Origin: a virus
Reading direction: 5' to 3' (one strand)
Length of the DNA stretch: 26,467 nt
IMG/VR virus record: IMGVR_UViG_3300047457_000269
Coordinates: 1-26,467 of that record
Under the pieces are notes generated by a model. The model worked only from the letters and a program-made list of their open reading frames with translations, was not told the DNA's origin and searched no databases. A program made the translations under genes and the position numbers. Below, in pieces: positions 2,175 to 26,467 of the stretch (its first letter is position 1; each line of letters opens with the position of its first letter).

Positions 2175-2429
2175 ATGGCAAAAACCCCTGCATGGCAACG
2201 CAAAGAGGGCAAGTCTGAGTCCGGTGGACTCAACGCCAAAGGCCGCGCCAGCTACAACAAAGCCAACCCCGGAAAGCCTGGGTTGAAGGCACCGCAACCG
2301 GAAGGTGGCCCCCGTCGTGACTCCTTTTGCGCCAGGATGAAAGGGATGAAGGCAAAGTTGACGTCAGAAAAGACGGCAAAGGATCCGAACTCCCGTATCA
2401 ACAAAAGCCTGAGGGCCTGGAATTGTTGA
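2175..2429 (+). CDS. Small basic conserved phage protein (DUF6321-like)
   Basis: An 84-residue basic protein starting MAKTPAWQRKEGKSESGGLN and containing LNAKGRASYNKANPG, RRDSFCARMKGMKAKL and a C-terminal DPNSRINKSLRAWNC. I recognise this pattern as a small family widespread in phages, which I believe is DUF6321; its function is unknown. An upstream in-frame ATG at 2151 would overlap the previous gene. I chose 2175 because family members begin MAKxPAWQRKEG and a GAGGT motif lies just upstream. It is the first of a run of seven tiny genes between the fibre genes and the adaptor gene, so a virion or assembly role is plausible but unproven. Confidence 0.85.
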   Translation: MAKTPAWQRKEGKSESGGLNAKGRASYNKANPGKPGLKAPQPEGGPRRDSFCARMKGMKAKLTSEKTAKDPNSRINKSLRAWNC

Positions 2430-2430
2430 C

Positions 2431-2676
2431 ATGGAAGCGACGTTCATTTGGAATACCGTCTTGACGTTGCTGATCGGCGTTGTGGGGTTCTTCATGTCAG
2501 CCAAGTTCAAAGAACTCGACCGTATCAGCATTCTGCTCAACAGAACGCGAGAGGAAGTGGCCCGGGATCACATCACCCGCTCAGAGTTCCGTCAGGACAT
2601 GAAAGAACTGCTGGAGAGGTTTGACAGGATTGAGTCGAAGATCGACAATCTACGAAGCAAGCCCCATGCCGTATAG
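2431..2676 (+). CDS. Single-TM coiled-coil protein
   Basis: An 81-residue protein with one membrane segment near the N-terminus (about residues 6-23, WNTVLTLLIGVVGFFMSAKF). A charged helical region follows, ending LLERFDRIESKIDNL, a good coiled-coil heptad pattern. The layout of short N-terminal anchor plus helical tail resembles the protein at 8269-8544 and many small phage membrane proteins annotated as holin-like or unknown. It lies one base after the previous stop and overlaps the next gene by 11 bases. It could be an accessory lysis or membrane protein, but it sits about 5.6 kb from the lysis cassette, so I do not assign a function. Confidence 0.8.
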   Translation: MEATFIWNTVLTLLIGVVGFFMSAKFKELDRISILLNRTREEVARDHITRSEFRQDMKELLERFDRIESKIDNLRSKPHAV

Positions 2677-2971
2677 TTCTCCCAAGCAAGAGCGGCTCAT
2701 GCGGGCCGTCGCGCACAGCCCAGGCTTCGCCAAGAAGGTGGGCATCCCCCAGGCCGTTGGCCTGACGTTCGAAGCCCATAAGGCCGAAGGAGGCCCCGTG
2801 AAAGAATCTCCCAAGATGGTCAAGAAGGAACTCGCCTTCATGAAGGCTAAGGGTGCGCCCAAGGCCATGATCAAGCACGAGAAGGAAGAAGCCAAGGGCA
2901 AGCCCAAGGGCAAGCCGTTTGCCAAGGGTGGCGCGGCGAAGAAGATGGCATACGGCGGCAAAGCCTGCTGA
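2666..2971 (+). CDS. Small Lys/Gly-rich phage protein
   Basis: A 101-residue basic protein starting MPYSSPKQERLMRAVAHSPG, followed by FAKKVGIPQAVGLTFEAHKA, a long Lys-rich helix and a tail containing FAKGGAAKKMAYGGKAC. The N-terminal pattern is one I recognise as a recurrent small-protein family in uncultured tailed phages with no known function. The start at 2666 overlaps the preceding gene by 11 bases. A longer in-frame form from 2621 would overlap it far more and lacks the conserved MPYSS beginning. The Lys/Gly tail is similar in style to those of the neighbouring small proteins. The high positive charge could indicate nucleic-acid contact or an internal virion location, which is inference. 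Confidence 0.82.
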   Translation: MPYSSPKQERLMRAVAHSPGFAKKVGIPQAVGLTFEAHKAEGGPVKESPKMVKKELAFMKAKGAPKAMIKHEKEEAKGKPKGKPFAKGGAAKKMAYGGKAC

Positions 2972-2977
2972 GGAGAG
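2971..2977 (+). promoter_or_regulatory. Ribosome binding site AGGAGAG
   Basis: A strong Shine-Dalgarno-like AGGAGAG begins at the last base of the preceding stop and lies four bases before the ATG at 2982. It supports that start over an in-frame ATG at 2919 inside the previous gene. Confidence 0.7.
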
Positions 2978-2981
2978 AAAG

Positions 2982-3242
2982 ATGGCGACGCAAAATCCCA
3001 CGAAGGCTCCGGCCCCGGCGCCGGCAATTCCGGCTGCAGTGCGCATGGCGATGGAGTCGGCGGCGAAGCAGAAGGCCAGCGATGCGGCGGAGAAGCACTT
3101 CCCCAAGAACATCGATCCGGAAGGCATGCTACCGCCCAAGAAGAAGGCGATGGGCGGCATGACCAAAAAGTACGCCGATGGCGGCTCTGTGCGCGGCGCA
3201 GGCGTCGCCCAACGCGGCGTCAAGCAGTGCAAGATGGTGTGA
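2982..3242 (+). CDS. Small protein with YADGGSV tail
   Basis: An 86-residue protein with an Ala/Pro-rich start (TKAPAPAPAIPAA), an Ala/Lys-rich helical middle, and a Gly/Lys-rich end. From residue 64 the tail reads YADGGSVRGAG, then VAQRG, then KQCKMV. The same kind of tail, with the same 23-residue length, closes the next gene. Start choice rests on the AGGAGAG just upstream. It is separated from the next ATG by one base. Function is unknown. The conserved tail looks like a short sorting or binding tag rather than a folded domain, which is inference. Confidence 0.83.
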   Translation: MATQNPTKAPAPAPAIPAAVRMAMESAAKQKASDAAEKHFPKNIDPEGMLPPKKKAMGGMTKKYADGGSVRGAGVAQRGVKQCKMV

Positions 3243-3243
3243 C

Positions 3244-3870
3244 ATGGCTACCGATGACGACGTCGAACACGAAGAGCGTGTAAGGCGCGGGGCTGCACGC
3301 CACCGCGCCGAGCAGGCGTTCTTGGACGCGCGCGACGAAGCTGATCGGCTTGCCGAGACGGGCAGGCAGTACAAAGACAAAGAGCGCGAGATCCAAGCAA
3401 AGATGACGCTCGACAGGATGCGGCGCCCCACGCCGTCTTACCGCTCCTCCTACACCGGCCCCGTGCGCAACCGTCAAATTATTGACGGTAAAGCGATTGT
3501 CAGCCGGGAAGAGCTTGCGGACTTCCAGAAGCGCTTTGGCGCGAACAAGACGCTGCGCGATCTGCTGAACGCAGACAAGACGGGGAAACTGCCCACGCCA
3601 GCGGCGCGGGGTAGCGCTACTGACACGCGTGCTCGCGGTGTTCAGGGAGCGAACATTCTTCCCAGGACGGAAGAGAACTACCCCGCTTGGCGGGATATGC
3701 AGCTTGGCAACCTGCAGTACTCACCCCGGGAAGTGGAGCGCAACACCCAGATCATGCGGGACGAAGAGAAGTACCGCAAGGGCGGCAAGGTCAAGGCCTA
3801 CGCCAAGGGCGGCAGCGTCAAGGGCTCGGGCTGTGAACAGCGCGGCCTGAGGAAGTGCAAGGTGTACTGA
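3244..3870 (+). CDS. Hypothetical protein with YAKGGSV tail
   Basis: A 208-residue charged protein. Residues 1-75 form a predicted long helix rich in Glu, Arg and Asp (EHEERVRRGAARHRAEQAFL and onward). A middle region contains DGKAIVSREELADFQKRFG and LRDLLNADKTGKLPTP. The C-terminus reads YAKGGSVKGSG, CEQRG, RKCKVY, matching the tail of the preceding protein in length and in 13 of 23 positions. I do not recognise the body as a named family, though the IVSREELADFQKRFGAN stretch resembles small phage proteins I have seen next to adaptor genes. The start ATG at 3244 follows the previous stop directly. The stop overlaps the next ATG by one base (TGATG). Confidence 0.82.
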   Translation: MATDDDVEHEERVRRGAARHRAEQAFLDARDEADRLAETGRQYKDKEREIQAKMTLDRMRRPTPSYRSSYTGPVRNRQIIDGKAIVSREELADFQKRFGANKTLRDLLNADKTGKLPTPAARGSATDTRARGVQGANILPRTEENYPAWRDMQLGNLQYSPREVERNTQIMRDEEKYRKGGKVKAYAKGGSVKGSGCEQRGLRKCKVY

Positions 3871-4115
3871 TGCGAGCCTCACGCGGCATGGGCTGCATCC
3901 GCCCGGAACTCAAGAAGCCCAAGGCATACGCCAAGGGCGGGGAGAGCCGCGTGAACGAGGCGGGCAACTACACCAAGCCTGGGATGCGCAAGAGTCTCTT
4001 TGAGAAGATCAAGGGGCAGGCTACGCAAGGTACGGCGGCAGGCCAGTGGAGTGCCCGCAAGGCGCAGCTTCTGGCGAAGCAGTACAAGTCCAAGGGCGGC
4101 GGGTATCGTGACTAA
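3870..4115 (+). CDS. Small conserved protein, WSARKAQLLAKQY family
   Basis: An 81-residue basic protein. It opens with MRASRGMGCIRPELKK and the shared AYAKGG motif. The conserved region is then NEAGNYTKPGMRKSLFEKIK, followed by AGQWSARKAQLLAKQYKSKG and GGYRD at the end. This second half is a motif I recognise in many phages and, from memory, in some large eukaryotic DNA viruses; its function is not known. The start overlaps the preceding stop by one base, and the end overlaps the next GTG start by eight bases, so the two are very likely translated together. The basic helix could bind nucleic acid, which is speculative. Confidence 0.83.
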   Translation: MRASRGMGCIRPELKKPKAYAKGGESRVNEAGNYTKPGMRKSLFEKIKGQATQGTAAGQWSARKAQLLAKQYKSKGGGYRD

Positions 4116-4344
4116 GGCCCCGCAGCAGTCCCTGAAGGACTGGACCGATCAGAAATGGCGGACCAAGTCAGGGAAGCCGTCTTCAAAGACGGGGGAGCGG
4201 TATCTGCCCGAGGCTGCGATCAACGCTCTGTCTCCCGCTGAGTACGCGGCCACGACCCGGGCGAAGCGGGCGGGCAAGGCCAAGGGCCAGCAGTTCGTCA
4301 AGCAACCGCCGAAGGTGGCATCGAAGACAGCGAGATTTAGATGA
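4108..4344 (+). CDS. Small conserved protein, SLKDWTDQKWRTKSGK family
   Basis: A 78-residue basic protein with GTG start (MTKAPQQSLKDWTDQKW), then RTKSGKPSSKTGERYLPE, ALSPAEYAATTRAKRAGKAK and a Lys/Pro tail KQPPKVASKTARFR. The family is widespread in tailed phages without assigned function. I chose GTG 4108 because the conserved family sequence begins immediately after it; the upstream in-frame extension to 4000 is shadow sequence of the overlapping gene. It overlaps the gene on each side (8 and 4 bases), so it is a tightly coupled partner of the protein at 3870-4115. The motif GERYLPEAAINALSPAEYAA is the best handle for a search. Confidence 0.83.
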   Translation: MTKAPQQSLKDWTDQKWRTKSGKPSSKTGERYLPEAAINALSPAEYAATTRAKRAGKAKGQQFVKQPPKVASKTARFR

Positions 4345-5081
4345 CCACATCAGGGACCACCACCTTCAACCTCGACCTCAACGACGCGGTCGAGGAGGCG
4401 TTTGAACGCTGCGGGGCGGAGCTTCGCACGGGCTACGACCTGCGCACTGCGCGGCGGTCCCTGAACCTGCTGTTCGCAGACTGGGCGAACCGTGGCATCA
4501 ACATGTGGACCTTCAACCAGGGCATGATCCCCTTGGTGCAGGGCACGAACACCTACACGCTCCCGTCTGACACCGTCGATCTCCTTGAGCATGTCATCCG
4601 CACCGGTGCGGGCAACGTCTCGACCCAGGTCGATCTGACCATCACGCGCATCAGCGTCAGCACGTACTCTTCCATCCCGAACAAGCTGCAACAGGCTCGT
4701 CCGATCCAGGTGCTGGTCAACCGGAACTCCAACGCGACGTACCCGGCGGCGAGCAGCTACTCCCCGGGCGCAACGGCAGCGCCCAGCATCACCGTGTGGC
4801 CCACGCCTGACCAGACGGGCGTCTACCAGTTCGTCTATTGGTACTTGCGGCGCATCCAAGATGCGGGTGCTGGTGGGGAAGCCACGCAGGACATCCCCTT
4901 TCGCTTCATCCCTTGCTTGGTCTCTGGTCTGGCGTACTACCTCGCCATGAAGCTCCCGGGTGGCATGGAGCGTCTCCAGATCCTGAAGGCGCAGTACGAC
5001 GAAGACTGGGACCGGGCATCGAGCGAAGACCGTGAGAAGGCTGCGGTACGGTTCGTACCCCGGCAGATGTTCATCAGCTAA
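4341..5081 (+). CDS. Head-tail adaptor / tail accessory protein (gp4-like)
   Basis: A 246-residue protein starting MTTSGTTTFNLDLNDAVEEA, then FERCGAELRTGYDLRTARRS, LNLLFADWANRGINMWTF and TYTLPSDTVDLLEHVI. This is the pattern I know from phage adaptor proteins that join the portal to the tail (P22 gp4 / T7 gp11 type): N-terminal helices followed by a beta region, with a C-terminal helical part DEDWDRASSEDREKAAVRFVP. It would sit below the portal ring at the head-tail junction. It starts by ATGA overlap with the preceding small gene. A second, shorter adaptor-type protein follows at 5874, in keeping with a podovirus-like neck made of two layers. Confidence is high for structural, moderate for the exact position. 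Confidence 0.8.
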   Translation: MTTSGTTTFNLDLNDAVEEAFERCGAELRTGYDLRTARRSLNLLFADWANRGINMWTFNQGMIPLVQGTNTYTLPSDTVDLLEHVIRTGAGNVSTQVDLTITRISVSTYSSIPNKLQQARPIQVLVNRNSNATYPAASSYSPGATAAPSITVWPTPDQTGVYQFVYWYLRRIQDAGAGGEATQDIPFRFIPCLVSGLAYYLAMKLPGGMERLQILKAQYDEDWDRASSEDREKAAVRFVPRQMFIS

Positions 5082-5083
5082 TC

Positions 5084-5509
5084 ATGGCCAACAGGTTTGC
5101 AAACGGCGCAAAAGCGTTCGGGTTCTGCGACGTCTGTGGATTCCGTTTCGACCTGAAGAAGCTCAAGAACCTCGTCGTCAAGACCAAGCAGACGCAGATC
5201 AAGGCGTGCCCTCAGTGCTGGACTCCGGACCAGCCGCAGTTGCAGTTGGGCATGTACCCTGTGGCCGACCCCCAGGCCATTCGTGACCCCCGTCCGGACA
5301 CAAATACGTGGTATCAGTCCGGTACGAACGGCCTCCAAACTGACACGGTGTCGGGCACCGGCCCGGACCAAGAGGGCTACCCTGGCGAGGGCATGTTGGT
5401 CATCCAGTGGGGTTGGAACCCCATCGGTGGCGCCAGGGACTTTGATGCTGTACTCACGCCAAACACCTTGGTCGGCGTGGGTGAAGTTGGTACAGTAACG
5501 TTTACCTGA
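5084..5509 (+). CDS. Zinc-ribbon-type structural-cluster protein
   Basis: A 141-residue protein. C15-x2-C18 (FCDVCGFRF) and C42-x2-C45 (ACPQC) form a four-cysteine zinc-ribbon signature spanning about 30 residues, joined by a Lys-rich link (KKLKNLVVKTKQTQIK). The rest contains DPQAIRDPRPDTNTWYQSG and IQWGWNPIGGARDFDAVLTP, a beta-rich tail. Proteins of this layout are common between the two adaptor genes in uncultured phages, in my recollection, and are usually left unnamed. The single ribbon could be structural, holding a virion part together, or could bind nucleic acid. No catalytic motif is seen. Translation begins two bases after the preceding stop. Confidence 0.8.
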   Translation: MANRFANGAKAFGFCDVCGFRFDLKKLKNLVVKTKQTQIKACPQCWTPDQPQLQLGMYPVADPQAIRDPRPDTNTWYQSGTNGLQTDTVSGTGPDQEGYPGEGMLVIQWGWNPIGGARDFDAVLTPNTLVGVGEVGTVTFT

Positions 5510-5510
5510 C

Positions 5511-5516
5511 AAGGAG
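5511..5516 (+). promoter_or_regulatory. Ribosome binding site AAGGAG
   Basis: AAGGAG lies five bases before the ATG at 5522 and directly after the preceding stop. This strong site supports translation of the 56-residue gene that follows. Confidence 0.7.
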
Positions 5517-5521
5517 TCAAC

Positions 5522-5692
5522 ATGGACGCAATGAAGGCCCTCCGGGCACATGCCAAGAAGCCCGCCAGTGTGGCGCATGGTCCCGGCGCCAAGCTCGCCA
5601 AGGGTGGCGTGACCACCGAGATGTCCCAGAAGATGGGCCGCAACATGGCTCGTGTGGCGAACCAAGGCCCGGTCGGGCGCAAGGGGAAGTGA
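5522..5692 (+). CDS. 56-residue basic protein
   Basis: A very short gene encoding MDAMKALRAHAKKPASVAHG, then PGAKLAKGGVTTEMSQKMGR and NMARVANQGPVGRKGK. It is supported by AAGGAG just upstream, by exact fit between neighbours (stop at 5692, next ATG at 5694) and by the recurring LAKGG motif. I recognise this small family from phage contigs; the pattern AKKPASVAHxGxAKGGVTT is characteristic. Function is unknown. It is strongly basic and Gly-rich like the small proteins at 2666-4344. It is short enough to be missed by standard length cut-offs. Confidence 0.8.
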   Translation: MDAMKALRAHAKKPASVAHGPGAKLAKGGVTTEMSQKMGRNMARVANQGPVGRKGK

Positions 5693-5693
5693 C

Positions 5694-5870
5694 ATGATGA
5701 AGGCCAAGCCTGTTCCGACTCCGGTCGTGAACGCTGACGCGCCTATGCCGCGCATGGTGGTGGGCAATATTGCCTCCGCTGCAACGCCCCCGGCCAAGAC
5801 CTCGGGGATCAAGATCCGTGGAACCGGTGCAGCCACCAAGGGCACCATGGCCCGGGGGCCGATGGCGTAA
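5694..5870 (+). CDS. 58-residue protein with RGTGAATKG end
   Basis: A short gene encoding MMKAKPVPTPVVNADAPMPR, a low-complexity Ala/Pro middle, and the C-terminal IKIRGTGAATKGTMARGPMA. The ending is a motif I have seen repeatedly closing tiny proteins of uncultured tailed phages. Two adjacent ATG codons (5694, 5697) are possible starts; the first is given. It sits one base after the previous stop and three before the next start, as expected for a real operon gene. Function is unknown. The RGTGAATKG ending recalls the +GxGxxxxG layout in the tails of the 2982 and 3244 proteins. Confidence 0.75.
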   Translation: MMKAKPVPTPVVNADAPMPRMVVGNIASAATPPAKTSGIKIRGTGAATKGTMARGPMA

Positions 5871-5873
5871 GCT

Positions 5874-6527
5874 ATGGACTACACCGCACTGAAGGTCGCC
5901 GTCGAGGACAGCACCGAGAACACGTTCTCGTCTGTTGACTTTGCCACGCTCACCAAGCTGGCAGAGCAGAAGATCTATCAGACGGTGCAGCTTCCGATCC
6001 TTCGGAAGGACGCGACCCTGGCGCTGACCAGCGGCGCCCAGAACGTCAACCTGCCGTCAGACTTCCTGGCGGCGTACAGCGTGGCTGTGTACTCGACGCT
6101 CTTGGGCGGTGGTGACCGTGCGTTCCTCCTGAACAAGGATGTGAACTTCATGCGGGAAAGCTATCCAAATCCCGCAACCACTGGCACGCCTCGGTACTAC
6201 GCCCTGGACGGTACGTCAACTGCGTTGATCCAGAAGATCATCCTCGGCCCGACGCCTGGGGCGAACTTCAGCCTTGATCTGAACTACTTCTACCAGCCGC
6301 AGAGCATTGTCGCGGCGGGCAACACATGGCTTGGTGACAACTTTGACACCGTGCTGTTCAATGCTGTCATGGTGGAAGCTGCTCGGTTTATGAAGGCTGA
6401 GCAGGACATTGTTCAGTTGTACATCAGCCAGTTCAACGATTCGATCCTCCTGCTGAAGAACCTGGGCGACGGCAAGAACCGTACAGACGCCTACCGCAGC
6501 GGTCAAGTCAGAAACCCGGTGAAGTGA
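5874..6527 (+). CDS. Phage adaptor/stopper-type neck protein
   Basis: A 217-residue protein: MDYTALKVAVEDSTENTF, then DFATLTKLAEQKIYQTVQLP, LPSDFLAAYSVAVYS, PRYYALDGTSTALIQKI and a C-terminal helix MVEAARFMKAEQDIVQLYIS. The order (helix pair, LPsDF strand, YxLDG region, final helix carrying an E-A-R-x-M motif) matches a family of phage head-tail connector or stopper proteins that I recognise from podovirus-like contigs. It would form a ring in the neck with the adaptor at 4341-5081. It starts three bases after the preceding stop. A structural role is well supported by family pattern and context; the precise ring is inferred. Confidence 0.75.
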   Translation: MDYTALKVAVEDSTENTFSSVDFATLTKLAEQKIYQTVQLPILRKDATLALTSGAQNVNLPSDFLAAYSVAVYSTLLGGGDRAFLLNKDVNFMRESYPNPATTGTPRYYALDGTSTALIQKIILGPTPGANFSLDLNYFYQPQSIVAAGNTWLGDNFDTVLFNAVMVEAARFMKAEQDIVQLYISQFNDSILLLKNLGDGKNRTDAYRSGQVRNPVK

Positions 6528-16838: not shown

Positions 16839-19800
16839 ATGCCGATCCAAGCACAACTTCATGACGGGCGTATCCTAGAGTTTCCTGACGGTACCAATCC
16901 GCAGGTTATTCAAGCTACGGTGAAGAGAGTTCTGGGGGTTCCACCTTCCACAGAACGTACTTGGGGGGAGGCTGCTGGAGATGTCGGTGCGGCTGCTATC
17001 AGGGGCACTGGGCAAGTGCTTCAGTTCCCGGGTGAACTTGTCGGTTTGGTTCCCGGACTGCGCGGGTTCGGTGAGGCCCTCGCTACCCCTGGTGAGTTCA
17101 TCGCGGGCTTCGGTGAACGGCTCAAGTCTTCTGGCCTGAAAGCTCGTGAAGCTCTCAGAAACCAAGCTCTGAGCGAGGCGGAAAAGGAAGGGGTGCTGGC
17201 GGAGTTCGCTACCGCTATCAAGGAAACGATCAAGGACCCAGCCCTACTGTCTACGTTCCTGACGGAGCAGGTACCGCAACTTCTTGGCCCCGGCGCCGCA
17301 GTTAAGCTCGTCAGATCGCTTGGGCGCGAAGCTGTAGAAGCTACAGCCCAGGGCGCTGCCCGGGAAGCTGCTGAGAAGGCCCTCCGTGAACGTGCTGCTG
17401 CCGCTGCTGTGGGCACTGGCGTGGCTATGCAAGGGGCTGATGTAGGGAACGATACCTACAAGGCGGTCTACGACCTTGCCATCAAGCAAGGTATGTCCGA
17501 GGAAGAAGCTCGGGCCTTGGCAGCGTCGAAGGCACGGGTAGCTGCCGCTGAGGCGGCGGCGATCTCTCTGGCAACAGCGCGTCTCCCTGGCGGTTCAGCA
17601 ATTGAACGGCGCATGGCGGGGCTTCCTGGCGGAAGCCGGGTGGGTGCGGGGCTGCGGGAAGCTGGCACTGAGAGCCTTGAAGAAGCTGGTGGTGCGTTCG
17701 CCAAGGGCGTCGGCATGGCCGAGGTTGACCCCTCGATCTCTCCCTTGACCGGTGTGGGCACTGCCGCAGGTTTCGGGGCCTTGGGTGGCCTCGGGCTTGG
17801 TACTGTCGTCGGTGGAGCGCCCGTCAAGCCGCCCGGTGCTGAGCCTTCTACCGGCGAGCTTGCGCCCATCGATGTCCGCCGTCAGGAAGCTGCCAGGGCT
17901 GAGGCTGAGAAAGCCGCCAAGGCTGCGAAAGCTGCCCCTCCCCCTGTACCTTCTACCCAGGCCATCATTGACGAGACGCTGACCAAACCGGTCAGCCAAG
18001 CGTCCGCACAACTCACGCTGGCTATCGAGCGACTGAAGGAGCAGCCTGCTTCCCCGCAGCGCAATGCGGCGATCAAGGAGCTTGACGACGAACTTAAACG
18101 TAGAGAACGCGAAGACGCGGAACGTGTCCAGGCAGGGAAAAAAAGGGCCGAAGGGTTTCTGACAGCAGGGCAGGCCGCTGCACAGGGAGTGACGCCCCGG
18201 GAGGAGTTCGACCCGACCCAAGCACGCCGCGAAGAGATCGAGCGCTTGCGTGAACGTCGTGAATCCATGCTGGTGAAGGGGAAGCCCCCAGCACGTAAGA
18301 GCCCTGCACGGCGTGAGTTCGATGAGCTTGATGCTCGTCTGGTCGAGATTGGCGGTGGACGTTGGACTCCGCCTATAGAAGCTACGGAACCCACGGCGCC
18401 TACGGTAGAAGAACCGACAGTACGAAGTCCTACGCCTTTGCCGGATGTGCTGGACAGCGTTACGGTTAGGACTATTGGGTTTACCAAGGGTGGCGTCCAC
18501 GATGCACTGGTTGGGAAAGCTATCACCGACCCCGAGATTCGTTCGGTACTGGAAGAGTACAAGAATAGGCCCAAGGCGAACGCAAAAACCGTAGCCAAGA
18601 TTGACGCGTTTCTTGCTCGCCTTCCTGAACCCACACCGCCTGAAGCGGCTGCGTCTGTTGAACCTACTACGCCCTACGGAAGCACCGAGTTCCCAGCCGC
18701 ACCAACCCCACCGGAGACCCCAAGTGCGTCCAATGTTCCAACTGAGCCAGAGCCAAGTGGAGCAGGCGTTCCAGTGGCTGGCGGACCCGCTGCCGTCAGC
18801 CCCGCCCAAGGAACTGGAGCCACTGAGCCAGTACGAGTGGTTCCTCCTGTCGAGGATGTTGGACAGCCTGCTGCAGGAGAAGGACAGCAGCCCCCTGCAG
18901 TAGCGCCCCCCGCCCCTGCGCCTAGCGGTAATAACACTCCCGAATCTGACGCCTTGATGGACGAAATTCGGGAGCTACAAAAACAACAACAAGCACTACT
19001 GACCAAAGCTGGACGAGCACCTGCGGTCAACTCGCCTGCGCGTAAAAAGTGGGACGAACTGGGCGAGCAAATTGCGAGTAAGAAAGCGCAATGGGCGGAA
19101 ATGACACGCGCCCCTGCTCCCGCTCCTGCACCGAAGGCTGCTGCTCCTGCCCCTACTCCTGCTGCTCCCGCTCCTGCACCGAAGGCTGCTGCTCCCGCGC
19201 CCGCTCCCGCACCTCAGGTAAAGCTCACTCCCAACCAACGCGCTGAGCTTGCGCAGCGGATTGACCAGATCGCTGACCGTATCCCGCAGAAGGAGTACGA
19301 CGACTTCGTTGACAACCATCTCAACGACTCAGGCACCAAGGTCAGGCCGGAAGCCGAGCACATCCAAGCTGCATTGGATCTGCTCAAGAAGTACGGCCCA
19401 GCGGAGAAGCCTGCGGAGCCGCCGAAGCCGCCGAAGGCCGTGAAGCCTGCGGAGCCGCCGAAGCCGCCGAAGGCCGTGAAGCCCGCAGAACCGCCGAAGC
19501 CACCTGCGCCTCCTGCCAGGACGCTGCCCCAGCCCAAGTTCCGACAGACACGGTTTGAAGAAGCGAGCCTCCCCAACTCCCGAGAGATGGATGACGCCCT
19601 TCGTGGCGCATCATTTACGGAAGCTCTCGACTACGCTATTGAGAACGCTCGTGACGATCTTGACCGTGCGGTTATGGTCAAGGTAAAGCGCCGTGCAGAA
19701 GAGTTGGCGAACCTAGGGGTCGAGTTTTCATTTGAACTTACACCGCGTGGTGTGACACTTTCTGGTGCTCGTGGTGTAGCGACTACTAGCTTTGCAGGGC

Positions 19801-22800
19801 TTGGTGAATCGCTGAAGGTAAACGTACAAATCAACGGATACACCGGCAGCACAAACAATACCCTTAGGCAGGAGACCCTTGTCCATGAAATGATTCATGC
19901 GGTTACTGTTGCGCAGATAAGGTATGCGCCTCAGAGTTCCGCAGCGATGAAACTGAAAGCGCTCCAAAAAGAGCTTCTATCGAAGTACAAGCAGCAAGAG
20001 AAAAACGGTCAGTTTAATCCAAACCAAAAGCAACTGCTTGGGAACGCTTTAGAAAACCCGTACGAGTTGATAACCTACGGGTTGGTAAACGCCGACGTCC
20101 AAAATTGGCTTGCGTCTACACCAAGTCCAACTGGGGGCACCTTCCTCGGTAGGTTCTTCGACCTTGTGTCTCAGATACTGAACCTCAAAGGGAAGGAAAC
20201 TTCAGCACTTGCTGAACTGATGACTATCTCTGAGAGCGTACTCGATGAGTCTCTCCAGCTTACTGTTAAAGAAGCAAACAAACAGTACGCGTCCTTCGGT
20301 AAGCAGCCGAACACTACGGGGTTCCCGTCATGGGTTTTGCGCCATGGCCTGAAGCCTGCATGGGTTGACGGCCCAACGGGCAACATAGCGTTGGTGGAGT
20401 CAGTAAGTAAGTATGGCGTTCCTGTGTATCTTGGGGTGAACAAGAACGAGAACAGGATCACTTTTGTAGACGTCCGTGACTACACTGGCACTGCGTTTAC
20501 ACAGAGTGAATTGCAACGTCTGAAAATCGCCGCCAACAATCTCGCTAATGCGGCTAAGCAAGCTGGCACTACAACTACCCCAGAGTTGGTAGAACCAGAA
20601 CTGGAACTCCGTGACACCGTCACCCCCCAGACCGAAGCTGCAACGGCGGGTGTCAACGCTATCGGTAAGGAGTCCAAGAAGAGCCTTGCGGATTTCCTCA
20701 GGCGCAACCCTGCCCTGGCTGCACGGATCAAAGCGACGGACTACCTTGCAGGGCTGGATGACATCTTCACCAAGGCTTACGCAGGGAAGGTGCGCGACGC
20801 TACGGGCAACCTGAACCCCATGGTGCTGATCTCCCGGGCGCTTGACCATGGGCGTGTCAGCCTCGAAGCTATGCGTACTGGGGGTTTGAAGATCAAGGAC
20901 GGGCTTGTCCAAGCTGCTGAACTGACGGTGCCTGAGGACTCGAAGGAGTTCCCGCTCGTCGCTGGCAAAACCATCAGCTACCAGAAGGATGTCATCGAGC
21001 GTCTGGCGAAGGAAGCTGAGAAAGCTGGGACGACCTACGAGAAGTACCGCACCCAGGTGGACACCGTGCTCTATGGGCACCGCGAGTACTACCTCCGTGA
21101 GCACAACCGTGAGGTTGAAAAGCAGGCACTGGCACTGGAAGCAGCGGGCAAAACCAAGGAAGCTGATCAGCTACGTGAAGATCAGACCATTGAGTTGCTC
21201 ATCAAGGATGACGCCAAGCTGGATGCGCTTGAAGCGGAGTTCCAGAGAAACAAGGACATCCAAGAGATCTCCCAGACCCTGGATGCAATCCGCTTCAACA
21301 ATCTGGATGTGCTGGTCGAAACCAACCGTCTGTCGCCTGAGAAAGCCCAGGAGTACAAGGACAACATCGGCTATATCCCGTTCAAGCGGATTGTTGAATA
21401 CGAAGCAGGGTTCGACACTGCTAGGGGCGGCAACCGTGGTATTGCTGCACTGAAGAACATTCGGAATCTGGAAGGTAGCAGCCGCGAATCGTTGTCCGTC
21501 ATTGAGAACTTCGCAGGGTTCATGGACTGGTCAACCCGCGAAGCCATGCTCAACAATGCTTCCCTGTCTGCGTTGAAGGACATGGAACTGCTGAAGCTCG
21601 CCAAGAAGGGAGCCAACAACGAAGTCGGTGCTACCGGTGCAAACGTCAAGGTGTACGACAAAGGGGAGAAGGTCGAGTACTACGTCCCCGATCCGGCGCA
21701 TGTGATCGCGTTCACTTTCCAGCCGCCGGAACTGTCGTCTGTCTTCAAAAAGATGCAGACTGCTTCCAACATCCTGCGTGCTGGCGTCACCTCGATGCCG
21801 CCTTTCGCTGTCAAGCAGATCTTTGACGACATCGCACGGGCATATGCTTATTCCGGGGTGAAGAACCCCATGCAACTGACGGCTCGTATCCTTACCAGTT
21901 TCCCTGCGAACTGGTACCGCGAAGCGTTCGGTAAGAAACAGAATGCCACCGTCCGGGAGATGGCGAAGCTCGGTATCTTCGGCACGTTCGATTTCACCAA
22001 AGGTGGGAACCTTAGGGACATCCTGCAAGAAGCTGGGGCCGAGGGCAGATCTATTGGTAAGACCATCATGCGATTCATGGAGGCCGGTGCCAAGGCTTCC
22101 GACGTTTCTGTACGCCAAGCTATCTATGAGCAGGTGTTGAAAGAAACCGGAGATGCCGCAGCGGCGGAGTCTCGTGCCCGAGAGATCATCAACTTCTCTA
22201 GGCGGGGCGCGTCTAACTTCATGAACACGATGATTGCTATCGTGCCGTTCTTCAACGCATACGCCCGTGGTATGGACAAGCTGGCGGTAGCTGGTGCAGG
22301 TAAAGTAGTCGGGCAGTCGGCAGGGCAAGCTAGGTCGATGTTCTACAAGCGTATGGGTGTGATGACAGTCATGGGGGTTGCCTACGCCATGATGATGTCT
22401 GATGATGACGAGTACAACGCACTGCCTGACCATGTGCGGGACACGAACTGGATCCTTCCCTACGGCAAATACCTCGGCTTTACTCCAGCGATCCCAATTC
22501 CTGCCGAACTCGCGTTCTTCTTCAAAGCTATTCCTGAGCGTGTTGTGCGGTACTACAAACTGCAAGGGACGGATGAAGAGAAAGCAGCTATCGAGGTCGT
22601 GGGTAATTTGCTGAAGCGTGGGGTGGATGTGTTTTCGTCCCCCAACGTCACGGCGCAGTTGCTTCGTCCGTTCGTCGAGAACATCACGAACTACTCGTGG
22701 TTCCTCGGTCGCCCGCTTGAGTCGCAGGGCCAGCTTGCACTGGACCCCTTCCAGCGCTTCGGCACCGGCACATCTGACACCGCGAAAGAAGCAGCCAAGA

Positions 22801-23348
22801 AGCTCGAAGATCTGTACCAGACAACTGGTGTGGAACTGTTCCGCGTCTCTCCGATCAAGATCGAGAACGCCATTCGGGGGATCCTGGGCACGACCGCAGG
22901 TGTAGCGCTGGCTATTTCAGACGCGTTCGTCAACCCCACGCGAACTGACCGCCCCCTGCACCAAATGCTCGCTGCCCAACTCACAGGTGCGTCGGCTGTG
23001 ATGAAGGACCCTGTCGGTACGAGGTACCTCGACGAGGTCTATGATCTGGAAAAGGATGTCAACCGCGTCAACTCAACATACAACCGTATGTTGGAGCGTG
23101 AGCCTGAGAACGCTGACGAGTACCTGCGTAAGAACGTAGGCTTGTTCTCCATCCGCCCTGCAGTGTCGTCCTTGATGAAGACAATCAAGGAACTCAACGA
23201 CGAAGCTGCTTTGGTTGACCGTACTACGGAGATCAGTAGGGCAGAGCGCCGCACGCTGATCAACCAGCTACGTGCCCAACAGAACCAGATCGCGCAACAG
23301 GTAGGGCTGTTGCGTACCCAGGCTCGGAAGATCCAGCAGGGGATGTAA
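16839..23348 (+). CDS. Giant polyvalent ejection protein with metallopeptidase-like domain
   Basis: A 2169-residue protein, by far the largest here. The N-terminus (QAQLHDGRILEFPDGTNPQV) is a small domain common on phage ejection proteins. Residues about 60-330 are Ala/Gly-rich amphipathic helix ending in a glycine-zipper stretch (GFGALGGLGLGTVVGGAP). Residues 340-900 are low-complexity with two related helical hairpins (465-506 and 704-752) and Pro/Ala/Lys links. Residues about 900-1170 hold H1016-E-M-I-H1020 in ETLVHEMIHAVTV, with E1076 (NPYELITYGLVN) as likely third zinc ligand, so a zinc metallopeptidase-like domain. From about 1275 to the end it resembles LPD38-type phage polyvalent proteins (RAGVTSMPPFAVKQIFDDIA), with hydrophobic segments near 1800-1900 and a final coiled coil. 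It is probably packaged and injected with the DNA. The start lacks a clear Shine-Dalgarno site. Confidence 0.82.
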   Translation: MPIQAQLHDGRILEFPDGTNPQVIQATVKRVLGVPPSTERTWGEAAGDVGAAAIRGTGQVLQFPGELVGLVPGLRGFGEALATPGEFIAGFGERLKSSGLKAREALRNQALSEAEKEGVLAEFATAIKETIKDPALLSTFLTEQVPQLLGPGAAVKLVRSLGREAVEATAQGAAREAAEKALRERAAAAAVGTGVAMQGADVGNDTYKAVYDLAIKQGMSEEEARALAASKARVAAAEAAAISLATARLPGGSAIERRMAGLPGGSRVGAGLREAGTESLEEAGGAFAKGVGMAEVDPSISPLTGVGTAAGFGALGGLGLGTVVGGAPVKPPGAEPSTGELAPIDVRRQEAARAEAEKAAKAAKAAPPPVPSTQAIIDETLTKPVSQASAQLTLAIERLKEQPASPQRNAAIKELDDELKRREREDAERVQAGKKRAEGFLTAGQAAAQGVTPREEFDPTQARREEIERLRERRESMLVKGKPPARKSPARREFDELDARLVEIGGGRWTPPIEATEPTAPTVEEPTVRSPTPLPDVLDSVTVRTIGFTKGGVHDALVGKAITDPEIRSVLEEYKNRPKANAKTVAKIDAFLARLPEPTPPEAAASVEPTTPYGSTEFPAAPTPPETPSASNVPTEPEPSGAGVPVAGGPAAVSPAQGTGATEPVRVVPPVEDVGQPAAGEGQQPPAVAPPAPAPSGNNTPESDALMDEIRELQKQQQALLTKAGRAPAVNSPARKKWDELGEQIASKKAQWAEMTRAPAPAPAPKAAAPAPTPAAPAPAPKAAAPAPAPAPQVKLTPNQRAELAQRIDQIADRIPQKEYDDFVDNHLNDSGTKVRPEAEHIQAALDLLKKYGPAEKPAEPPKPPKAVKPAEPPKPPKAVKPAEPPKPPAPPARTLPQPKFRQTRFEEASLPNSREMDDALRGASFTEALDYAIENARDDLDRAVMVKVKRRAEELANLGVEFSFELTPRGVTLSGARGVATTSFAGLGESLKVNVQINGYTGSTNNTLRQETLVHEMIHAVTVAQIRYAPQSSAAMKLKALQKELLSKYKQQEKNGQFNPNQKQLLGNALENPYELITYGLVNADVQNWLASTPSPTGGTFLGRFFDLVSQILNLKGKETSALAELMTISESVLDESLQLTVKEANKQYASFGKQPNTTGFPSWVLRHGLKPAWVDGPTGNIALVESVSKYGVPVYLGVNKNENRITFVDVRDYTGTAFTQSELQRLKIAANNLANAAKQAGTTTTPELVEPELELRDTVTPQTEAATAGVNAIGKESKKSLADFLRRNPALAARIKATDYLAGLDDIFTKAYAGKVRDATGNLNPMVLISRALDHGRVSLEAMRTGGLKIKDGLVQAAELTVPEDSKEFPLVAGKTISYQKDVIERLAKEAEKAGTTYEKYRTQVDTVLYGHREYYLREHNREVEKQALALEAAGKTKEADQLREDQTIELLIKDDAKLDALEAEFQRNKDIQEISQTLDAIRFNNLDVLVETNRLSPEKAQEYKDNIGYIPFKRIVEYEAGFDTARGGNRGIAALKNIRNLEGSSRESLSVIENFAGFMDWSTREAMLNNASLSALKDMELLKLAKKGANNEVGATGANVKVYDKGEKVEYYVPDPAHVIAFTFQPPELSSVFKKMQTASNILRAGVTSMPPFAVKQIFDDIARAYAYSGVKNPMQLTARILTSFPANWYREAFGKKQNATVREMAKLGIFGTFDFTKGGNLRDILQEAGAEGRSIGKTIMRFMEAGAKASDVSVRQAIYEQVLKETGDAAAAESRAREIINFSRRGASNFMNTMIAIVPFFNAYARGMDKLAVAGAGKVVGQSAGQARSMFYKRMGVMTVMGVAYAMMMSDDDEYNALPDHVRDTNWILPYGKYLGFTPAIPIPAELAFFFKAIPERVVRYYKLQGTDEEKAAIEVVGNLLKRGVDVFSSPNVTAQLLRPFVENITNYSWFLGRPLESQGQLALDPFQRFGTGTSDTAKEAAKKLEDLYQTTGVELFRVSPIKIENAIRGILGTTAGVALAISDAFVNPTRTDRPLHQMLAAQLTGASAVMKDPVGTRYLDEVYDLEKDVNRVNSTYNRMLEREPENADEYLRKNVGLFSIRPAVSSLMKTIKELNDEAALVDRTTEISRAERRTLINQLRAQQNQIAQQVGLLRTQARKIQQGM
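19111..19215 (+). repeat. Pro/Ala-rich coding repeat
   Basis: Repeats of PAPAPAPKAA, including two near-identical copies of CTCCCGCTCCTGCACCGAAG about 48 bases apart. It encodes an extended, disordered linker between the second helical hairpin and the next domain of the giant protein. Confidence 0.85.
19409..19500 (+). repeat. 36-bp tandem repeat encoding PAEPPKPPKAVK
   Basis: Two exact 36-base copies (19409-19444 and 19445-19480) are followed by a diverged partial copy with GCCCGCAGAACC. The encoded unit PAEPPKPPKAVK forms a stiff polyproline-like link just before the metallopeptidase-like domain. Exactness of the first two copies suggests a recent duplication. Confidence 0.9.
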
Positions 23349-23426: not shown

Positions 23427-23666
23427 CTATACCTCACGCCAGACGCGAATGCCAAGCATCCCGTCCTCGATCCGTTCTGCCCATGTGATCTTGAACCCCA
23501 CGCGGCTGTAGCGGTGCACCAGCACCCACGCCATGGACCGTGCTTCCAGGCACGGCACGAAGAAGCTCTGACCCGGCTCAAGCCACTGCGGCAACCGGTA
23601 CCTGACGCCCCTGATCGTGGCAACCTCAGGCAGTTCATGCGGGAGCCGACGATCCATCGAGGTCAT
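23427..23666 (-). CDS. Small conserved phage protein downstream of primase
   Basis: A 79-residue protein on the minus strand. It contains IRGVRYRLPQWLEPGQSFFV, PCLEARSMAWVLVHRYSRVG, FKITWAERIEDGMLGIRVWR. The PGxSFFVPCL motif followed by a helix and a final GxRVWR strand is one I recognise in small proteins near phage replication genes; its function is not established. The start overlaps the end of the primase-helicase gene by 32 bases, so it is co-transcribed and probably translationally coupled. A second in-frame ATG at 23657 would give a slightly shorter form. Transcription then ends at the hairpin about 45 bases downstream of its stop. Confidence 0.8.
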   Translation of the reverse strand: MTSMDRRLPHELPEVATIRGVRYRLPQWLEPGQSFFVPCLEARSMAWVLVHRYSRVGFKITWAERIEDGMLGIRVWREV

Positions 23667-26433
23667 CGAGGTTCATCAGACTGCGGGCGTTCTGGAACTC
23701 CAGCACATCGACCGCCCCCAGGTCGGTACGCCAGCCAGCGCCCATGCGCTTCTTGGTGACGTTGACCGTGCCTCCGGTTTCTTGCTTGAACAGCGGACCT
23801 ATCTCCTTGGCGTTGATGTAGTTGGTGGCGCACCACTTGGTGAACTCCCGCTTGTTGATGAACAACGTATCGGTATCAGGTTCGTACCTGATGATCAGTT
23901 CAGCCTGAGGTTCCACCCTAGGTGCTTCCGGCAAGCCGCTGGGTCCAGTCTTCCTGTTGACGATCAGGATGTTCCTGATGTTCTTGTTGATGAACGACGA
24001 CACCGTGCTGGATGCAGTAGTGCTGACAGCCTTGAGTTCATCACGCAGGTCGCGCACCTTGTTGACGAGCTTTTTGGCGATGCGACCGATGTCGTATCTA
24101 GTCAGCCCCAGGTGGTTTGTCACCAACCCTGCCGAGACCATGCAGATCACAGCGTTCAGCTTGTACCGTTCGGTCTGGGTCCAGCGCTCCATACCGTAGA
24201 TCTTATCCCTGGTGTTTTCCCAGATCCGCTTCACTTCATCAAGATGCGGGATGACATAGCGCATGAATATGTCACCGGCCAGACCGTAGTTGTCCAGAAT
24301 CTTGTTGAACGTCAACTGTGCACCGAGCACATCGTCAGGTAGGGGGGTGTCCAGGCGGATCTCCAATGACCGTGCAAGTTCCCCCTGAGGATCAGACTTA
24401 ATCGTTGACAGCCTATCTTCGAGGGTAGTGTTGCTCGACATGATAGTGATCTGCTTCCAACGGGTATTGTTCACACGCTCCGCGTTGGTGTTCGCCTGCA
24501 TTCTATCTCTAGCACGGCCTTGCGTAGAGTTGTAGAGCAGGTCAGAGATCTCCATGGGATCCGCGTTGGTCATCTCGTCGATGGTGACGATGATGCCGTT
24601 CATCAAGCCCATGCGGTGTATCTTCGTGAGCTTCGTATCCTGCGCGTCCTTCATCAGGTTCACAGGGTCTCCGAAGATCGAGTTCGCGATCCGCAGGATG
24701 GTGGTCTTGCCCGTGCCTGACTTCTTCGAGTAGTAATTCAGCACAGCCCCGCTCTCGGGAGACAGGTGCATGAACACGCTTCCGAAACCAGCTAGCACAC
24801 CCGCTGCGTGCATATCCATCTCGGGCTTGTTGTACAGATCGACTACGCTCTTCCAGTCATCGATATTGCCTTTGGGTGTGAACCAGTTTACGTAGTTCTC
24901 TAGGGGCTTGGACGTTGGGCTGTGAATGACGCCGTTGTGCGTGTATTCACGATTACCGATAACGAAAGTGTTATCAGCGGTCCAGCCAAACTTGACTCGC
25001 ATGTTGTCGGCTTTCTCAGCTTTTTGCAGTTCTTCGATCATTTTGCTGAACAGCAACTGCAGGCCACTCAGTTGACGATCCTCAAACGCAATGACCCCCT
25101 CACGGTTTACGCAGTCCCGGAACTTGTCCTTGGATGCGACTTCGCTTTGTTGTATCGTGAACTCACGTACATCGTTGTGCGGAAGATGGTGCCTGACCCA
25201 GAGCGTGTCGCCACCACCATGGTTGTCGCGCATCCGCCGGTAGATATAGATGTCGTAGGGGTTGACCAGCACGGTCTTGTCCCCCTGCGGGTTGTACTGC
25301 TTCATGTACACGCCGCCAGTAGCGCCACGCACGAAGGGTGCCGGGTAGGCCGGGATCGTCTCTTCGCGGTCTTCGACCTTGACCGCCACCGGTTCAGTCG
25401 TTGTCTTGATCTCTGCCCCAAGCTGGATCGGGGACGTGATCTTGCCCAGGTGCGGGCACTTCTCACACAGCGGCCCCTCGTCCAACCCCCTGAACGTCTC
25501 ACAGGTGTACGGCCCCTTGGTCAGCGAAGCCTTGGCCTCGGTCTCCTCAGGGCTGTAGTTGGGGTGATTCTTCGAGATCTCGTGTATGGCCCAGTCCCTG
25601 TCCTCGCAGTGCTGTGCAATCGACAGCACGCCACGCCACAGCGGCTCGGCAAGGGTCTCAGGGTTGCGGATCGCGTTGTTGATCTGCTCGCAGCCGAAAC
25701 TGCCAACAGACTTCATCCAGATGGTGTGAAACTTGTTGGTCTTGTTGGGGTCAACGAAGAGCTTCTTTGTCTCCTCTATCGAGCCCTTGGACAGCGCCCG
25801 CGCTTTGGCGAACATATCCGCTTGAAATACTTCGACGCCAATGATCTCGCGTAGCGTGTTGAAATCATGGTGCTTGATCGGCGTGAGTAGCGCGACGGTA
25901 GCACCGTTCTTGGTGTTGACCGTGCCCGGAATACGCAGTACCCGGACGTAGTCCGCAGTGCAGGCACCGTCAACCTTGAAATTCTCAGCGACACACCTGT
26001 GCTTCAGAGCCTCAGCTACCGCATGCCACTCATGCAGTGCGACGCTGTCGTTGAAGATCCAGTGTGCATGGATACCGTTACCCGAGTCGATGAGCGTGGG
26101 TCTTGGCAATCCAACGGAAGTGCAGAATGTACGCAGGGCTCCTAGCCCTTCTGCTTTGTCTTTGTATGGTTTTTTCTCTCCGCAGTCTATGTCTATGTAC
26201 AGTTCGCGCTTCGCTACGGCGTTCTCTGCGTTCGCTTTTTTCTGTGCTCCAAACCCTGCTGTTGCGTAGTAGAGGTCGAGTCCACTATGAACAAGCTGCT
26301 CCGCTTGTTCCGCCATCTCCTCGAATGATGACGAGAAGACATTGCGACGCTTGTCCGTGGGTTTGTGGATTAGCCGTAGTACATAACGCGTGCCTTGTGG
26401 GAGGATGCTTCTGAAGAAGTCTGTGAAAGCCAT
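23635..26433 (-). CDS. PrimPol-helicase fusion replication protein
   Basis: A 932-residue protein on the minus strand. The N-terminal third is an archaeo-eukaryotic-type primase (PrimPol) by motif: D81-x-D83 in LYIDIDCG, SGNGIHAHW (H122, H124), and DYVRVLRIPGTVNTK. A cysteine cluster follows (YTCETF, then LCEKCPHLGKITSP), a probable zinc site. The C-terminal half is a P-loop ATPase: Walker A SGTGKT at 572-577, Walker B acidic pair D619-E620 (IIVTIDEMTN), and a sensor-like ITIMSSN, resembling DUF927/SF3-type phage helicases. It would make primers and unwind DNA at the fork. ATG 26433 matches the usual family start (MAFTDFFRSILPQGTRYVLR). A TTG start at 26460 is possible, and the frame stays open to the window edge. 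Confidence 0.86.
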   Translation of the reverse strand: MAFTDFFRSILPQGTRYVLRLIHKPTDKRRNVFSSSFEEMAEQAEQLVHSGLDLYYATAGFGAQKKANAENAVAKRELYIDIDCGEKKPYKDKAEGLGALRTFCTSVGLPRPTLIDSGNGIHAHWIFNDSVALHEWHAVAEALKHRCVAENFKVDGACTADYVRVLRIPGTVNTKNGATVALLTPIKHHDFNTLREIIGVEVFQADMFAKARALSKGSIEETKKLFVDPNKTNKFHTIWMKSVGSFGCEQINNAIRNPETLAEPLWRGVLSIAQHCEDRDWAIHEISKNHPNYSPEETEAKASLTKGPYTCETFRGLDEGPLCEKCPHLGKITSPIQLGAEIKTTTEPVAVKVEDREETIPAYPAPFVRGATGGVYMKQYNPQGDKTVLVNPYDIYIYRRMRDNHGGGDTLWVRHHLPHNDVREFTIQQSEVASKDKFRDCVNREGVIAFEDRQLSGLQLLFSKMIEELQKAEKADNMRVKFGWTADNTFVIGNREYTHNGVIHSPTSKPLENYVNWFTPKGNIDDWKSVVDLYNKPEMDMHAAGVLAGFGSVFMHLSPESGAVLNYYSKKSGTGKTTILRIANSIFGDPVNLMKDAQDTKLTKIHRMGLMNGIIVTIDEMTNADPMEISDLLYNSTQGRARDRMQANTNAERVNNTRWKQITIMSSNTTLEDRLSTIKSDPQGELARSLEIRLDTPLPDDVLGAQLTFNKILDNYGLAGDIFMRYVIPHLDEVKRIWENTRDKIYGMERWTQTERYKLNAVICMVSAGLVTNHLGLTRYDIGRIAKKLVNKVRDLRDELKAVSTTASSTVSSFINKNIRNILIVNRKTGPSGLPEAPRVEPQAELIIRYEPDTDTLFINKREFTKWCATNYINAKEIGPLFKQETGGTVNVTKKRMGAGWRTDLGAVDVLEFQNARSLMNLDDLDGSSAPA

Positions 26434-26467
26434 GGGGGCACGGGAGTAGCCCAGGTGCAACGAGCAC

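Follow-up and report, generated by a model that had tools for sequence, protein, structure and literature searches.

A shared C-terminal tail on fast-swapping basic proteins, mostly of uncultured aquatic phages, is probably a virion address label

Introduction

Encapsulin cargo-loading peptides are short, usually C-terminal sequences carried by unrelated cargo proteins, and an HK97-fold shell recognizes them. In bacteriophage T4, the internal proteins are small, basic, and poorly conserved between relatives, and they have in common a short capsid targeting sequence that is sufficient for packaging (PMC9026906). One of them, IPI, inhibits a host restriction enzyme after injection, and the targeting sequence was proposed to be an evolutionary means of loading various proteins into the capsid (PMC9026906).

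For most small genes of aquatic phages, the function is not known. We analyzed a virus record of 26,467 bases (the window), in which two adjacent genes, A and B, encode basic proteins with a common C-terminal tail. As in T4, a short constant peptide is found here on several small, basic, and poorly conserved proteins of tailed phages.

Results

Genes A and B have only their C-terminal tails in common

Translation bore out the two ORFs of the first-pass annotation (Table 1), each with a tail of 23 residues counted from Tyr (YADGGSVRGAGVAQRGVKQCKMV and YAKGGSVKGSGCEQRGLRKCKVY) and 13 positions identical. When the last 24 residues of the two proteins were compared, 13/24 were identical, which was matched by 0/2000 shuffles. 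The local alignment of the whole proteins scored 96 (shuffle mean 28.7, maximum 53, 0/2000), while the bodies without the tail scored 25 (shuffle mean 25.9). The body alignment was thus at shuffle level, in agreement with the first-pass claim that the bodies are unrelated. In the profile-profile comparison of the two families by hhalign, only the last 33 residues aligned (52% identical, E=1.2e-13). This result put the length of the homologous unit at about 33 residues; the count of 23 from Tyr stood, but "exactly 23" as the length of the shared unit did not.

We considered whether genes A and B could be diverged full-length duplicates, or whether their likeness came from chance or low complexity, since the genes adjoin and both proteins are basic. 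The check for full-length paralogy was run with the shuffles and hhalign, and the two proteins are not paralogues end to end. The bodies align at shuffle level, the tail lies beyond all 2000 shuffles, the profile comparison is confined to the last 33 residues, and the same bodies are found elsewhere with other tails. This explanation was thereby ruled out, and we leave it next to no probability.

Pfam and PHROG scans of proteins A and B gave nothing significant. In a whole-protein tblastn search of 50,697 phage records, gene A gave no match and gene B one non-significant partial match. The AlphaFold models were of low confidence (mean pLDDT 52.5 and 63.6 for the two), with the tails mostly at pLDDT <50. 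Gene A was predicted to be almost wholly disordered, with one weak helix besides; for gene B a long N-terminal helix and a small ordered region (76-117) were predicted, again with low confidence. A Foldseek search with these models returned no significant match.

Table 1. Positions of the features of the window, with the basis of each assignment
Feature	Position	Strand	Basis
DUF6321 gene, conserved upstream neighbor	2175..2429	+	PF19846 E=5e-19; position in relatives
Small gene with N-terminal hydrophobic stretch, conserved upstream neighbor	2431..2676	+	ORF; position in relatives
Third member, 101 aa, shortened tail KPFAKGGAAKKMAYGGKAC, virion-protein-like N-terminal module	2666..2971	+	Translation; relatives with full tail; PHROG 16759, 25121, 22033
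Gene A, 86 aa, basic, pI 10.1, shared tail at end	2982..3242	+	ORF and translation
Gene A tail, 33-residue homologous unit	3141..3239	+	hhalign; tail profile E=9.9e-15
Gene A 23-residue tail counted from Tyr	3171-3239	+	
Gene B, 208 aa, basic, pI 9.9, shared tail at end	3244..3870	+	ORF and translation
Gene B body, exchangeable cassette	3256..3777	+	blastn blocks; absent or largely replaced in L017, L025, L028, flanks 86-93% identical
Gene B tail, 33-residue homologous unit	3769..3867	+	hhalign; tail profile E=1.8e-15
Gene B 23-residue tail counted from Tyr	3799-3867	+	
Small basic gene MRASRGMGCIRPELK..., conserved downstream neighbor	3870..4115	+	phrog_17747 E=9e-27; position in relatives
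SU10-type neck adaptor, neighborhood anchor	4341..5081	+	PF24175 E=9e-11
Second SU10-type adaptor	5874..6527	+	PF24175 E=1e-20

A third tailed gene and other genes of the window

The pair was correctly recognized, but speaking of two adjacent proteins understated the cluster, because a third tailed neighbor, encoded at 2666-2971, had been missed. Where this protein ends in KPFAKGGAAKKMAYGGKAC, its relatives have KPFAKGGVTRADGCVTKGHTKGTMVKMAMGGKAC. The relatives read KPFAKGG-VTRADGCVTKGHTKGTMV-KMAMGGKAC and the window reads KPFAKGG-AAK-KMAYGGKAC; since the relatives carry the fuller stretch between the two flanking motifs, the tail copy of the window is a shortened one. The N-terminus of the same protein holds a SKKQxxFM...AKKxGIPQ module (phrog_16759, E=1.6e-12). 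This module of PHROGs 16759, 22033 and 25121, known from phiKZ-like and other jumbo phages, is common to the third member and 6/112 tagged proteins, and is absent from genes A and B. PHROGs 22033 and 25121 are described as virion structural protein. The module sits at the protein end opposite to the tail, and has no likeness to it.

The interval 2175-5870 has genes for seven small proteins that are strongly basic (pI 9.9-11.8). Of the head and neck proteins, those tested (scaffold-like, portal, capsid and adaptor) had pI 4.7-5.5. Basic bodies and tails of charge +5 are set against acidic head and neck proteins.

Several other genes of the window were noted. The small basic protein of 5694-5870 ends in SGIKIRGTGAATKGTMARGPMA, a C-terminus of RGxGxAxKG type that was also seen between the two adaptor genes of relatives; this end could be a remote variant of the tail, or the likeness could be convergent. 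The 56-aa protein of 5522-5692 ends in KLAKGGVTTEMSQKMGRNMARVANQ..., a different C-terminal stretch that opens with the same AKGG element. The protein of 1385-2164 is built of many near-identical repeats of ~22 residues (SYAITGQAATL...), which also align out of register with relatives. Downstream of the virion genes, 16839-23348 is a single reading frame of 2169 aa, and a 941-aa protein with DUF927 (PF06048) is encoded at 23635-26460 on the minus strand, opposite to the virion genes.

The tail is C-terminal, found in viruses only, and constrained as a protein

Viral contigs were searched with a degenerate DNA pattern of the window-type tail (type 1), GG-[ST]-V-[RK]-G-x-G-x-x-Q-R-G, which is blind to stop codons, and at least 119 viral contig stretches matched. 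Among the matches listed, the stop codon lay exactly 20 residues past GG in 88/93 distinct frames. In 85k bacterial and archaeal genomes, a slightly longer type-1 pattern matched once; this single match (L149) was judged to be chance, as it was non-C-terminal and in a repeat-like frame. The pattern of a sister tail (type 2), GG-x-T-R-A-D-G-C-x-x-K-G-x-T-[KR]-G, matched at least 120 stretches. Among the 110 distinct type-2 genes in the matches listed, the end comes 20 residues after GG in 54, and 28-29 residues after GG, with a KMxxGGKxC-like extension, in 51. The tail is thus not strictly at the C-terminus in every case, since 8-9 further residues follow it in many type-2 proteins. In one locus (L155), the protein of 5343-6089 was seen to combine the jumbo-phage N-terminal module with an internal second tail-like stretch (KYAKGGFTRAADGVAQKGKTKAKHFAMGG), and therefore tail copies need not be terminal.

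The tail consensus was K-G-G-x-x-K-x-Y-A-x-G-G-S-V-R-G-x-G-x-x-Q-R-G-x-x-K-x-K/R-x-x, with a charge of +5 and a length of ~20-33 residues, where conservation at the pattern positions comes partly from the construction of the search. Outside the pattern of type 1, GG is preceded by Y/F/M/L and A/K, positions 20 and 22 are mostly K/R, and position 24 varies widely (V, Y, C, I, M, R). Position 21 is C in 53/88 tails and G in 26/88. The first-pass annotation had suggested that a conserved Cys could allow attachment or metal binding. This idea is not supported, because many tails have Gly at that position; the Cys is limited to one tail subtype and absent from large subtypes. Across the tail set, fixed Gly residues are encoded by each of the four Gly codons and fixed Ser residues by codons of both blocks, which indicates constraint on the protein.

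No significant match was found in Pfam and PHROG scans of the tails alone (best PHROG E=0.25), and none in the PDB with the tail profile. Pfam gave no match in 112 tagged proteins, and PADLOC defence models, a library that does not hold counter-defence proteins as such, matched 0/112. No description of a shared C-terminal phage tag was found in the literature searched, but coverage was partial, and this absence is therefore weak evidence of novelty.

Tail types and bodies are exchanged

The 231 distinct tagged genes among the matches listed fell into 67 body clusters, so the earlier expectation that the tail stands on many unrelated bodies held. A first loose clustering (22 groups) had joined bodies via residual tail sequence and was replaced by the stricter one. 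Among the matches listed, type-2 tails were found on 27/67 body clusters, and 14 of the 28 multi-member clusters had more than one tail type. The gene A body (MATQNPTKAP...) carries a QRGVKQCKMV tail in the window and a TRADGC...KGHTKGRMV tail in L006 and L024. The gene B body carries a GCEQRGLRKCKVY tail in the window and GCE[TS]RTKKTKYV in L004-L007, and the bodies MARNYRTP... and MYTKEMG... were each seen with both tails. Conversely, 72/72 tail nucleotides were identical on unrelated bodies. The tagged bodies are basic (median pI 9.9, 93% above 9, median length 126), and hydrophobic residues make up 19% of them versus 33% of the adaptor.

The swapped units were body cassettes with their edges at the tail. 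When the window was compared with relatives L017 and L025, nucleotide identity was kept to ~3255, just past the gene A stop, and resumed at 3778, the start of the gene B tail region, the gene B body before it being absent or largely replaced. In L028, both bodies were replaced, and the gene A tail stretch 3152-3255 was kept at 98%. Between phages with ≥95% identical adaptor proteins, ~30% of tail-gene bodies had a homolog versus 90% of downstream ORFs, in a comparison made with uncurated ORFs; the corresponding figure for upstream untagged ORFs, 63%, is not to be relied on because spurious calls were included. A first comparison of hypervariability, in which 68% of tail bodies were without homolog, had a biased control, since homology to window genes had been the criterion for choosing the control genes.

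Tagged genes lie between capsid and neck genes

In long regions, the gene order was major capsid, decoration-like genes, DUF6321, small genes, 1-3 tagged genes, small basic gene, SU10-type adaptor, and second adaptor; overall, groups of 1-4 tagged genes were found between capsid and neck genes. Because the loci had been collected with the tail pattern and not with the adaptor, the adaptor count is a fair test of the neighborhood. Among the matches listed, the neck adaptor was present in 98/100 non-redundant type-1 loci, and type-1 tagged genes were on the adaptor strand in 170/170 cases, 161 of them within 0-3.2 kb upstream. Type-2 tails among the matches listed were at 241-2037 bases upstream of the adaptor on the same strand in 97/97 cases; all type-2 loci that extended far enough downstream contained the adaptor, and the loci without it end within 3 kb. 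In contigs of up to 66 kb, confident tail matches were confined to a single locus. The restriction of the tail to virion-gene neighborhoods, which the first-pass annotation had put forward as a check, was thus observed for both types among the matches listed.

A tail query of the window type had no match in phage records. With a variant tail query, the Planktothrix phage Pag-Yong1 group was found at E=0.03 and confirmed by profile: UMO75986 of Pag-Yong1 is a protein of 308 aa that ends in YASGGMIGRDGCAKRGRTKGRFI (tail profile E=5.6e-12). In Pag-Yong1 and the related MinM2 and Pra-JY27, the tagged gene lies between the capsid and portal-adaptor genes, as in the window type. The group differs in having one tagged gene only, and the body of UMO75986, annotated as hypothetical protein, is unrelated. 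A match in Mycobacterium phage Shandong1 was rejected as chance, because the genes annotated there are on the other strand. HTVC023P, HTVC027P, CRP-902 and DSL-LC04, which have the same adaptor, showed no clear tag, and small Gly/Arg-rich motifs were present. The tag is therefore not essential to the adaptor architecture.

Discussion

We suggest, at a little short of an even chance, that the tail serves as a C-terminal targeting tag and takes unrelated, small, basic, and rapidly swapped proteins to a shared site on or in the assembling virion, most likely inside the head. The first-pass annotation had proposed a targeting, packaging or processing tag. Targeting is plausible, as both the variety of bodies and the virion-gene neighborhood came out as predicted, while nothing specific was found for processing. 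Location among head genes alone is no proof of presence in the head. The tail would be an unstructured, basic peptide that probably binds in extended form to an acidic component, for example the scaffold, the portal, the capsid or a neck adaptor. One assembling part of the virion, probably inside the head, would read the tail as an address, and the bodies would be exchangeable cargo under host-driven selection. Cargo entering with the DNA would likely adapt the phage to different hosts, as T4 IPI does.

The position of the genes between capsid or decoration genes and the neck adaptor would also suit a tail that docks accessory proteins outside the virion, as capsid decoration or at the neck or collar, with variable bodies acting in attachment or protection; fast variation equally suits surface proteins. 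We consider this unlikely, as the bodies differ from folded fibres or decoration domains in their small size, strong basicity and low content of hydrophobic residues, and gene A is predicted to be almost wholly disordered. Still less likely is a general basic, RGG-like nucleic-acid-binding peptide for DNA condensing or RNA binding, without a specific address. Such a peptide would fit the Gly/Arg/Lys-rich composition, the +5 charge, the basic bodies and the predicted lack of structure. RGG tracts, however, are usually variable in length, and the fixed spacing from GG to the stop (type 1) and the conserved Tyr-Ala and Gln-Arg-Gly exceed the needs of charge alone.

The tail might instead act mainly as DNA, a recombination anchor whose homologous 3' ends permit body exchange while the peptide does little. 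The 72/72 identical tail nucleotides on unrelated bodies and the coincidence of exchange edges with the tail point this way, and the same codon is used at 10/13 shared residues of the two window tails versus 5.3 expected. Across the set, however, amino acids are kept while codons vary (both Ser blocks, four Gly codons), and the layout is common to several diverged tail types, which makes this less likely again. A stability or degradation signal recognized by a host protease, or a proteolytic processing site, would agree with the C-terminal position and the fixed length in type 1; we regard it as very improbable, since the last residues vary widely (position 24), and the tail occurs only beside neck genes, whereas a stability tag would be free to occur on phage proteins of any kind.

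The targeting tag can be taken one step further, to a large group of mostly uncultured aquatic short-tailed phages that may load an exchangeable set of small basic proteins into the capsid via their own C-terminal peptide, distinct from that of T4, for delivery with the genome; this extension is doubtful as a whole, though a real possibility. If it is true, the cassette exchange would be a record of phage-host arms races. If the tag loads particles, it would point to phage-delivered proteins in an abundant phage group, and this is testable in a cultured carrier. The carrier group is related via the neck adaptor to the HTVC023P-type pelagiphages and to a freshwater cyanophage group.

As judged from sequence, the tail is a widespread and interchangeable tag on fast-swapping basic proteins, mostly of uncultured aquatic phages, and it is probably an address label for the virion. 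It marks, from sequence alone, a class of small genes with one location, extreme variation and one address. It is also a clear natural example of gene bodies shuffled before a constant 3' end.

The tail has a layout like that of the encapsulin peptides, short, C-terminal, and on unrelated proteins; encapsulins differ in being cellular nanocompartments. With the T4 system the tagged genes have in common small basic proteins (median pI 9.9, median length 126), hypervariable bodies, and the same short peptide on several unrelated proteins (67 body clusters among the matches listed, and an hhalign match confined to the last 33 residues). The peptide itself is placed differently. The T4 signal is N-terminal, has ~10 residues, and is removed by the gp21 protease, whereas the tail is at the C-terminus, has 20-33 residues, and is unlike that of T4 in sequence. 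Without claiming membership in the T4 type, we propose by analogy that the tail may work like the T4 capsid targeting sequence.
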